Shown: positions 12,855 through 15,403 of the stretch, piece after piece
Layout: each line of letters opens with the position of its first letter
Position numbering within the stretch: the first letter of the stretch is position 1
Assembly (NCBI GenBank): GCA_030754885.1
Contig: JASLZL010000104.1
Coordinates: 1 to 33,209, forward strand
Reading direction: 5' to 3'
Source: Rhodospirillales bacterium
GTDB lineage: Bacteria > Pseudomonadota > Alphaproteobacteria > Rhodospirillales > JASLLZ01
Length of the DNA stretch: 33,209 bases
The notes under the pieces: generated by a model
The model's input: the letters and a program-made list of their open reading frames with translations, nothing else
Database searches by the model: none
Told to the model about the DNA's origin: nothing
Translations under genes and position numbers: made by a program

Positions 12855-14117
12855 ATGAGTGATTCGACATCCGGTTCGGCCGGCGGCCACGTTACCGTCA
12901 TTGGCGCCGGCATCGTGGGGACGTGCTCGGCCCTTTACCTGCAGCGCGAGGGCTTCGATGTGACCCTGATCGACCGGGACGGCCCGGGAGAAGGAGCATC
13001 GCTGGGTAACGCCGGTAGTCTGGGAGTGGCCTCCATCCCGCCTGGCTCAATGCCGGGATTGATCTGGAAGCTGCCCGGCATGATGTTGGACCCCCTCACT
13101 CCGCTTGCCGTCGACAGGCTTTACATGCTGCGTTCCATGCCCTGGTTCCTGCGTTTTATGTGGAACAGCCGGCGGTCGAAGGTAGAACAGATCGCTGATG
13201 GCCGAAACGCGCTTCTAAGCCGCATTTTCGAGGGGTATCAGCCGCTGCTTGACGACGCCGGCGCCGAGGACCTGGTCGCTCATCACGGCAAGCTTCACGT
13301 CTACGAGCGCGCCGATGGCTTGGCCCGATCGGCCTATGCGCTTGAGATGCGCCGCCGGCGTGGCGTCAAGGTCCAGGAGATGAGCGGCGATGAGGCGCGT
13401 GAGATGGAACCGGTGCTTTCGCCGATCATTAAGGGCGCGGCCTTCTTTCCCGACGTTCATACGGTAATTAATCCGTTGCGATTGGTGCAGGTCTTCGCTC
13501 AGCATTTTGTGCGCCGCGGCGGCACACTTCTTCGCGAGTCGGTTAGCGGGTTCGAAATCGGCGCCGACGGGCCCAGCCGCATAATTACCGACGCCGGCAG
13601 CCACGAAGTGGACAAGGTAGTCATCGCAACCGGTGCGTGGTCGATACCACTGGCTAAGCAAATGGGATTGAACCCACCCTTGGAGGCGGAGCGTGGCTAC
13701 CACAACATGATCACGGACCCCGGCATCGAGATCAGCGTCTCGATCACATCGAACGAACGCTACGTCGTTTTGACGCAAATGGAACACGGCCTCAGGGTAT
13801 CGGGAATCGCTCAGTTCTCCGGCCTGCATTCCGAGCCCGACTACACTTTGGCGGATCGGGTTCTCGAAAACGCCCGTGTTGTCGTGCCGGGCCTCAAGGG
13901 AAAGGTGGAGTCCAAATGGGCGGGGCCCAGGCCGTCTCTGCCCGATTCTCTTCCCATCATCGGCCCGTCGCCGCGCTATCCCAAGATTTACTTCGCCTTC
14001 GGCCACGATCATGTGGGGCTGGCCACCGGCGCGATCACCGGCAAGCTGATCGGTGAGTTGGTCGCCGGGCGTCCGACTTCGGTCGATCTGACCCCCTATC
14101 GTGCCGATCGCTATTAG
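12855..14117 (+). CDS. FAD-dependent oxidoreductase, D-amino-acid dehydrogenase (DadA)-like
   Basis: 420 residues of the DAO fold. FAD-binding N-terminus VIGAGIVGTCSALYL about 17-31 (G-x-G-x-x-G), then the strand-2 acid in VTLIDRDGPG. The GNAGSLG segment follows. C-terminal GHDHVGLATGAITGKLIGEL is the family's second flavin-contact region and is close to DadA (GHGTLGWTMA-type region). The family oxidises D-amino acids or related imino/hydroxy acids to 2-oxo acids, passing electrons to the membrane. A 2-oxo product would be a substrate for the dehydrogenases just upstream; this link is inference. The start has GGGGGAACG upstream. The stop codon TAG (14115-14117) is also the first three bases of the structured inverted repeat, so that element may supply the present stop. 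Confidence 0.9.
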   Translation: MSDSTSGSAGGHVTVIGAGIVGTCSALYLQREGFDVTLIDRDGPGEGASLGNAGSLGVASIPPGSMPGLIWKLPGMMLDPLTPLAVDRLYMLRSMPWFLRFMWNSRRSKVEQIADGRNALLSRIFEGYQPLLDDAGAEDLVAHHGKLHVYERADGLARSAYALEMRRRRGVKVQEMSGDEAREMEPVLSPIIKGAAFFPDVHTVINPLRLVQVFAQHFVRRGGTLLRESVSGFEIGADGPSRIITDAGSHEVDKVVIATGAWSIPLAKQMGLNPPLEAERGYHNMITDPGIEISVSITSNERYVVLTQMEHGLRVSGIAQFSGLHSEPDYTLADRVLENARVVVPGLKGKVESKWAGPRPSLPDSLPIIGPSPRYPKIYFAFGHDHVGLATGAITGKLIGELVAGRPTSVDLTPYRADRY

Positions 14118-14382
14118 TGTTCTGGATCGGACTTATGGTACCCATACGACGGCCTTCCGAGTTCATCCGGCTAGGCGCGTGGTGCGCCTTGATGCTGGAG
14201 CATCACAAGCATCACGCAACGACGCCGGGGGGCTCGGAAGGCCGCCCTCTGGGTCGCTTTCCCCGCCCCCTCGGTGCGTCAGGAAGGCTTGCTGATGCAA
14301 AGGCATCGCCGCCACCTCCCTTCCTGCCGAGCGAACGGGAAAAGCGATCGTATGGGCACCATAAGTCCGATCCAGAACACTA
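14115..14382. repeat. 268-bp structured inverted-repeat element (MITE-like), three-way-junction fold
   Basis: The ends are 35-bp inverted copies (14115-14149 and 14348-14382) with 34 of 35 matches; the single difference is A/G in GGTACCC/GGTGCCC. Inside, nested stems fill nearly the whole interval. The left arm is 14150-14161 with 14233-14244 (12 bp, CGGCCTTCCGAG), enclosing AGGCGC/GCGCCT (14173-14189) and TGATGC/GCATCA (14190-14205). The right arm is 14254-14263 with 14337-14347 (one bulge), then CTCGG/CCGAG (14270-14274, 14327-14331), CAGGAAGG/CCTTCCTG (14280-14287, 14319-14326), and GATGC/GCATC (14294-14307). Both arms abut the long stem. Short open frames on both strands come from the palindrome and are not credible genes. 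The element starts in the stop codon of the FAD gene and ends one base into the Shine-Dalgarno AGGGAG of the next gene. No clear target duplication is seen. Confidence 0.9.
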
Positions 14383-14392
14383 GGGAGATGCA

Positions 14393-15403
14393 ATGAGCGT
14401 TAGGTGGAAGACGCGGCCCGAGGGTTCGAACTGGGGTGATTTCGGAGCCGACGACCAAATCGGGCGGCTCAACCTACTGACCCCTGAGCGCGTGCGCCGC
14501 GCCGTGGCCGAGGTGCGGGAGGGACGCGTTTTTTGCCTCTCCATGCCGCTTGACTATCCAGGCGGCAATTACCACGACCTGGGCCGCAAGCCGCCCAAGC
14601 TTCATCCGGTCGTGCGCGGTGGGCGCATCAAGTACGACGACCGCGGCAGCGAGCGCCATCCGGATGCCTCTTGCGACGACTGGGTCGAGTTCTACACCCA
14701 GTACTCCACACAATGGGACGCGCTTTGCCATATCGGCTCGGCATTTGATGCCGATGGCGATGGCGTCGCCGAGACGGTCTATTATAACGGCTATCGCGGC
14801 GGCGAGCACGTCGCCCGGCCGACGGTTGCCGAAGACGATTTCGCCGGCGCCCGGGCGCTCGGCATCGAAAACATGGCGGCGACCGGCGTGCAGGGGCGCG
14901 GCGTCATGGTCGACCTCTTTGCCGCCTGCGGCCGCGAGCGCACCATCGTCGGCTACGACGCTCTGATGCGTGTCATAGAGTCAGACGGCGTCACGGTCGA
15001 AGACGGCGACATGCTGTGCCTGCACACCGGCCAGGTCAGTGCCATCCTGGAAATGAATAAGAATCCCGACCACGAGACCCTGGAAGACGCCTTTTCCCAC
15101 CTTGACGGCTGCGACGAACGATTGCTGCGCTGGATCGACGACAGCGGCGTCGTGGCGATCGCCGCCGATAACTTTTCCGTTGAGGCAGTGCCGCCCAGCG
15201 CCGCCGTCGAGGGCCGAGCCTATGAGGGTCTGCACGAACTTTGCATCTTCAAGCTTGGCATTCATCTGGGCGAGCTATGGCACCTGGGTCCGCTCAACGC
15301 CTGGCTCAAGGAACACGGCCGCTATCGGTTCCTACTCACCGCGCCGCCCTTGCGCCTGCCTGGTGCCGCGGGCTCACCCGTTACCCCGGTGGCCACGGTA
15401 TGA
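14393..15403 (+). CDS. Cyclase-family metal-dependent hydrolase (kynurenine-formamidase-like)
   Basis: 336 residues. The first part, WGDFGADDQIGRLNLLTPE about 15-33, followed by a VFCLSMPLDYPGG strand, is typical of long members of the cyclase family (PF04199). The metal motif, usually H-x-G-T-H-x-D-x-x-x-H, appears as YSTQWDALCHIG about 103-114; the long subgroup commonly has T-Q-W-D-A/G. A second family motif is GVMVDL about 166-171, and DMLCLHTGQ about 205-213 follows. Such enzymes hydrolyse amides, lactones or cyclic acyl compounds with Mn or Zn. AGGGAG sits 5 bases before the ATG, immediately after the repeat element. The stop overlaps the next start in ATGA (15400-15403), so translational coupling with the CoA-transferase is likely. 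Confidence 0.88.
   Translation: MSVRWKTRPEGSNWGDFGADDQIGRLNLLTPERVRRAVAEVREGRVFCLSMPLDYPGGNYHDLGRKPPKLHPVVRGGRIKYDDRGSERHPDASCDDWVEFYTQYSTQWDALCHIGSAFDADGDGVAETVYYNGYRGGEHVARPTVAEDDFAGARALGIENMAATGVQGRGVMVDLFAACGRERTIVGYDALMRVIESDGVTVEDGDMLCLHTGQVSAILEMNKNPDHETLEDAFSHLDGCDERLLRWIDDSGVVAIAADNFSVEAVPPSAAVEGRAYEGLHELCIFKLGIHLGELWHLGPLNAWLKEHGRYRFLLTAPPLRLPGAAGSPVTPVATV

Follow-up and report, generated by a model that had tools for sequence, protein, structure and literature searches.

The usual hallmark of a MITE, a non-autonomous transposable element, is a pair of conserved ends around a degenerate middle. In Streptococcus pneumoniae, the 107-bp RUP element is short, lacks a conserved open reading frame (ORF), carries terminal repeats resembling those of a resident IS630 element, targets TA and folds tightly with its ends paired, and its mobilisation by IS630-Spn1 was proposed (PMC2229807, PMC3049150). 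Correia/NEMIS elements of Neisseria have terminal repeats with TA ends and are inserted near genes (PMC2229807, PMC10969869), and transcripts of Correia elements can be cut by RNase III (PMC10969869). The BOX element of S. pneumoniae is a modular interspersed repeat with folded modules (boxA, boxB and boxC; PMC3049150). Chunjie (Geobacter) and QMITE (Coxiella; PMC10969869) are dispersed repeats of about 190-400 bp with ends, a core and, in QMITE2, a stable stem-loop fold. ISY100 inserts almost only into TA, which is duplicated, and some one-sided TA losses occurred in vitro (PMC2170065); a preference of IS630 for CTAG is stated in the title of Tenzen and Ohtsubo 1991, which is cited in PMC2170065.

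Many of these traits recur in an element of 268 bp (including both TA) and 64% GC, located in a 33,209-nt contig of a Rhodospirillales genome; this whole contig is termed the window below. Compared by description, RUP has one end type (PMC2229807, PMC3049150), whereas the present element is longer and possesses two covarying arms, many unrelated end types per core and a distribution over many families of Alphaproteobacteria. Correia/NEMIS elements are likewise set apart by description, as they differ in host and size and no fixed-boundary exchange of ends is described for them in PMC2229807 and PMC10969869. In BOX, again by description, the number of internal modules varies, whereas here variation lies in the terminal modules, which match different transposons; like BOX, however, the present element also shows internal variation in the form of arm loss and extra hairpins. 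For QMITE1, the ends were described as better conserved than the rest (PMC10969869), which is reversed in the present element. The open-access literature yielded no description of this MITE family, nor of one core combined with several unrelated ends.

The first three bases of the element (14115-14117) double as the TAG stop of an upstream FAD oxidoreductase gene (DAO type); an earlier note on this DNA had stated that the element starts in this stop codon. It ends directly 5' of GGGAG, the Shine-Dalgarno-like sequence of a cyclase gene (Table 1). The earlier note had placed this end one base into the Shine-Dalgarno sequence, but the second TA stops just before GGGAG. Both the upstream stop codon and the downstream ribosome-binding site are preserved, as read from the sequence. 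Insertion would have occurred into the TA of the stop codon, which survived because the element itself begins with TAG, and the next gene would have kept its ribosome-binding site. An effect on the two-gene mRNA (processing, insulation or stability, e.g. through RNase III cutting as in Correia elements) is possible by analogy.

Table 1. Coordinates of the element and its flanking genes in the window.
Feature	Position	Strand	Basis
Upstream gene, FAD-dependent oxidoreductase (DAO, PF01266); TAG stop includes target TA	12855..14117	+	ORF, domain
Left TA, target-site duplication, also bases 1-2 of upstream TAG stop	14115..14116	.	Empty sites and ORF 12855-14117
Left 29-bp terminal module, an exchangeable terminal inverted repeat of IS630 type	14115..14143	+	Boundary 29/30, alignment
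Conserved 210-bp core with both hairpin arms	14144..14353	+	Copy alignment, end/core boundaries
Hairpin arm A, GGCCTTCCGAG...CTCGGAAGGCC, apical GATGC...GCATC stem-loop	14150..14244	+	Fold, covariation helices 2-4
Tiny central hairpin CCC-TCT-GGG	14245..14253	+	Fold, covariation helix 5
Hairpin arm B, reverse complement resembles arm A	14254..14347	+	Fold, covariation helices 6-10, arm comparison
Right 29-bp terminal module, left module in inverted orientation	14354..14382	-	Inverted repeat, sharp boundary
Right TA, second target-duplication copy, directly 5' of GGGAG	14381..14382	.	Empty sites
Putative cyclase gene (PF04199) downstream, with intact start and Shine-Dalgarno	14393..15403	+	ORF, domain

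The 35-bp termini (14115-14149 and 14348-14382) are complementary at 34 of 35 positions with one mismatch, in agreement with the earlier description, and the window contains two occurrences of the 25-bp end, compared to zero expected by chance. The outermost TA on each side represents the target duplication and the mobile part proper comprises positions 14117-14380. At the RNA level, a minimum free energy of -172.9 kcal/mol was computed for 14115-14382, compared to -100.6 +/- 5.2 kcal/mol for 200 dinucleotide shuffles (z = -13.96); none of the 200 shuffled sequences, a control that had been suggested for this locus, was as stable. The predicted fold consists of a single long outer stem and two long hairpin arms with a tiny CCC-TCT-GGG hairpin between them. 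Thus, the long stem and the two arms of the three-way junction proposed earlier are retained, but the junction is strictly four-way once the tiny hairpin is counted. As arm A resembles the reverse complement of arm B (64 of 97 consensus positions identical, 5 SD above shuffles), the core probably arose long ago when a single hairpin arm was duplicated in inverted orientation. Any one reading frame is open in at most 19 of 59 copies, so that the element has no conserved ORF and is devoid of a transposase. An 88-codon open frame of the window copy (14117-14383, + strand) crosses the element from an edge GTG to an edge TAG and is unconserved among copies.

Comparison of loci with and without the element, a check named in the earlier note, revealed a TA duplication and two empty sites. 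When joined at one TA, the flanks of the window copy align to an element-free orthologous locus of the sister species G001 (L170) at 85% identity with two single-base gaps at the junction. In a nested case, L091 carries an uninterrupted CTAG (...CATTCGGCTAGGAGCG...), while L125 and L166 harbour an insertion at exactly that TA. The flanking base at position -1 is C in 62 of 93 left and 74 of 93 right ends and T in most of the others, which defines a (C/T)TAG target. TA was found on both sides of 47 of the 93 copies and on one side only in 39. The left and right ends are terminal inverted repeats with a mean identity of 0.93 and a minimum of 0.84 (57 copies). Taken together, the TA duplication and the (C/T)TAG target are a mark of IS630/Tc1-mariner transposition. 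A perfect TA has been lost on one or both sides in about half of the copies, which counts against the IS630 reading; at such ends the outermost T is often replaced, mostly by C and usually on one side only, and L125 and L166, which share the same insertion, differ in this base.

IS630 elements were searched for in the same order by scans for DDE_3 (PF13358) and with one full-length transposase, and the inverted repeats flanking each transposase gene were taken as their ends. Their transposases exhibit DDE_3 and HTH domains. Complete or partial elements with ends matching MITE end types were identified: TAGTGGATAGAATC is matched by L025 of the host genome, L200, L243, L266 and L267, TAGTGTCCTG by L190 and L241, TAGTGGCCTGTATCA by L202, TAGTACNGCCCAGCG by L186 and, more weakly, TAATACCAA by L197. 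The autonomous elements (e.g. L190, L202 and L186) have terminal repeats identical at 20-26 of 30 bases to particular end types, CTAG flanks and a DDE_3 transposase; they measure about 1.2-1.3 kb including the transposase gene, and a likeness to the MITE was noticed in the ends only. When the first five bases were held fixed and the rest was shuffled, between 0 and 7 of 1000 trials attained the observed match, and four unrelated control IS630 elements with TAGAGCA or TAGC ends showed no match to MITE ends. Between end types, the transposases are 27-49% identical to each other, with the exception of L198 and the TAGTGGATAGAATC group (67-71%). The host genome contains no intact IS630 element with the end type of the window copy, and the exact end type has weaker IS630 matches only, in other genomes. 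As the sole DDE_3 match of the host genome is truncated (184-aa ORF) and associated with a different end type, the window copy may now be inactive there.

Searches of the parent and related genomes revealed that the element is not a single-copy sequence. Six sites are present in the host genome (G000; 3.1 Mb, 131 contigs), about a dozen matches in G001 and 66-67 matches in each of G006, G007 and G008, some of which are pieces of one copy. Order-wide, 33 of 317 genomes contain matches, and in several of the marine Rhodospirillales MAGs that were searched the element is abundant. Outside the order, six of the sampled genomes of the class (Alphaproteobacteria) match and add further end types; the family is spread over many families of Alphaproteobacteria and is sparse in those outside the order. 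A core-pattern search of genome contigs recovered at least 115 stretches. The exact 25-base end was without a match in the genome contigs because the ends vary, and plasmid records contained no match to the element. Among pattern matches in Phycisphaerales, Nitrospira and ZJ7, L059 and L092 look like chance matches, and L076:988-1017 (Nitrospira MAG contig VRUB01000190.1), seemingly an end relic, comprises a piece of arm B and an end with a TACGATC boundary on a short, possibly mis-binned contig. Several variant forms were observed. Shorter derivatives seemingly without arm A or most of it are located at L138:5280-5441, L021:1447-1612 and L105:6582-6779, and copies of 280-390 bp, several with extra GC-rich hairpins, at L004, L005, L016, L055 and L097. 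A lone TAGTGTTCTGGATAGG end-like sequence between genes of the host genome (L011:1501-1523, G000 C98) is perhaps a decayed copy. A distinct palindromic repeat of 81 bp, bounded by TAATACCAAGGAGCGCTGATCATG ends, occurs at L067:2176-2256, L067:2780-2860 and L102:1572-1652, and this end type is also found on a longer copy that has the core (L081:3538) and on a 235-bp copy (L120:3613-3847).

Based on these observations, the element is identified, with a probability of roughly 0.93, as a MITE mobilised in trans by IS630-family (Tc1/mariner-type DDE) transposases. The earlier suggestion of a MITE-like repeat is strongly backed by the empty orthologous site, the TA duplication, the CTAG target, the dispersed copies and the ends shared with IS630. 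In the proposed mechanism, an IS630-type transposase would bind the terminal repeats of about 29 bp and excise the element, which would then be pasted into a TA, preferably within CTAG, with duplication of the TA. The sequences themselves show a history of mobility with a TA/CTAG target, multiple copies, IS630-matching ends, sharp boundaries and paired stem changes; binding, excision and catalysis in trans are deduced from such marks together with knowledge of the family.

The pairing potential of the element is conserved. Across 41 diverse copies, 96.0% of stem cells are standard pairs, and 70 of 99 pairs changed on both sides, which answers the earlier call for a search for compensatory changes. 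The covariation score of these copies is 0.434, compared to 0.07-0.09 when partners were slid by 1-3 columns and 0.134 for shuffles. Part of the covariation of the ends would follow from two ends serving one transposase, while that of the arms implies a constraint on pairing at the DNA or RNA level. This strong arm covariation, the very stable fold, the conservation of the core above the ends and the location between two co-directional genes would all suit a functional structured RNA or a cis-regulatory mRNA element (processing, termination or insulation) with incidental ends. However, mobility marks and IS630 ends speak against such a role, and paired changes can also stem from a constraint on DNA. 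G-T to A-C mismatches amount to 44:42 in the outer stem, 140:13 in arm A and 11:38 in arm B, a strand test that is swayed by a few pair columns and favours no consistent strand. The orientation relative to flanking genes (26 sense, 16 antisense) points the same way, but was obtained with a crude ORF caller that allowed open-ended ORFs, and is not relied on. A search of the window against Rfam at gathering thresholds yielded no family match. An RNA function is consequently regarded as unlikely, and the structured RNA considered in the earlier note is unsupported as the reason for the element, given the mismatch balance and the lack of an Rfam family and of a conserved frame. Far more improbable still is a REP/BIME element moved by RAYT or a single-strand element of the IS200/IS605 type: these systems use hairpins too, and the element is hairpin-rich, intergenic in the window and present in high copy number in some genomes, but its full-length copies have matched terminal inverted repeats with TA target marks, and its ends match IS630 termini.

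The IS630-mobilised MITE displays an unusual distribution of conservation. Among 57 aligned copies, mean identity is 78% in the core compared to 51% in the ends, and copies in one MAG lineage exhibit cores that are 92-96% identical and ends that are 22-47% identical, with both ends changing together. In 42 pairs of copies (core at least 88%, ends at most 60% identical), identity climbs between positions 29 and 30 from low values to about 1.0, and it drops between 239 and 240. The boundaries are symmetric to the base, exactly 29 bp from each terminus, so that the 29-bp terminal modules and the 210-bp core behave as separate units. Judged by sequence, one core is repeatedly associated with ends of different IS630 lineages. 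That the core surpasses the ends in conservation runs opposite to the expectation for a simple MITE and counts against a plain MITE reading. Candidate reasons for this conservation are a cruciform aiding transposition, a mild insulating effect and concerted evolution by gene conversion. A change of both ends by re-duplication of one half was considered and dropped, as arms A and B stay distinct when the ends change. One hybrid copy (L062:4833-5085), whose left end is TAGTGGCCTTTATCAG and whose right end is of the TAGTGTCCTGTCCCAG type, is likely a recombinant of two copies.

Our working model is a MITE mobilised by IS630 in which copies with different ends share cores through recombination; an exchange of ends would take place among resident copies, by recombination or by ectopic gene conversion. 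Capture of ends by the core and homogenisation of cores by gene conversion both fit. It is also conceivable, at somewhat less than even odds, that no end exchange took place: end types would have diverged with their own transposases from one ancestral MITE, while ectopic gene conversion homogenised the cores within genomes. This scenario concerns the history of the family and is compatible with the identification as a MITE. Core identity is indeed highest for copies of the same genus with the same ends (mean 0.935), cores with different ends are more similar within a genus (0.82) than between genera (0.76), and conversion confined to the shared core would also yield sharp boundaries. However, conversion tracts would have to stop at 29 bp on both sides repeatedly. 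Furthermore, copies with the same ends from different genera have a mean core identity of only 0.82, the same as copies with different ends within a genus, so that cores do not simply follow ends and ends do not dictate cores. More doubtful is the idea that the hairpin core is itself the selfish or functional module, repeatedly switching both ends in concert, and that one parasite lineage would thereby alternate between, or simultaneously use, several divergent IS630 transposases; the folded core would then be selected, possibly since cruciform DNA aids transposition or shields the insertion.

As an IS630-type MITE, the element is ordinary in kind; what sets it apart is the combination of a conserved double-hairpin core with many interchangeable ends. 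Repeat finders relying on ends for clustering would break the family apart. In nature, the family provides a system for testing how terminal repeats are exchanged and whether a cruciform core helps transposition. It shows how a non-autonomous element whose middle is conserved and whose ends are replaceable can persist beyond any single transposase and spread across families.
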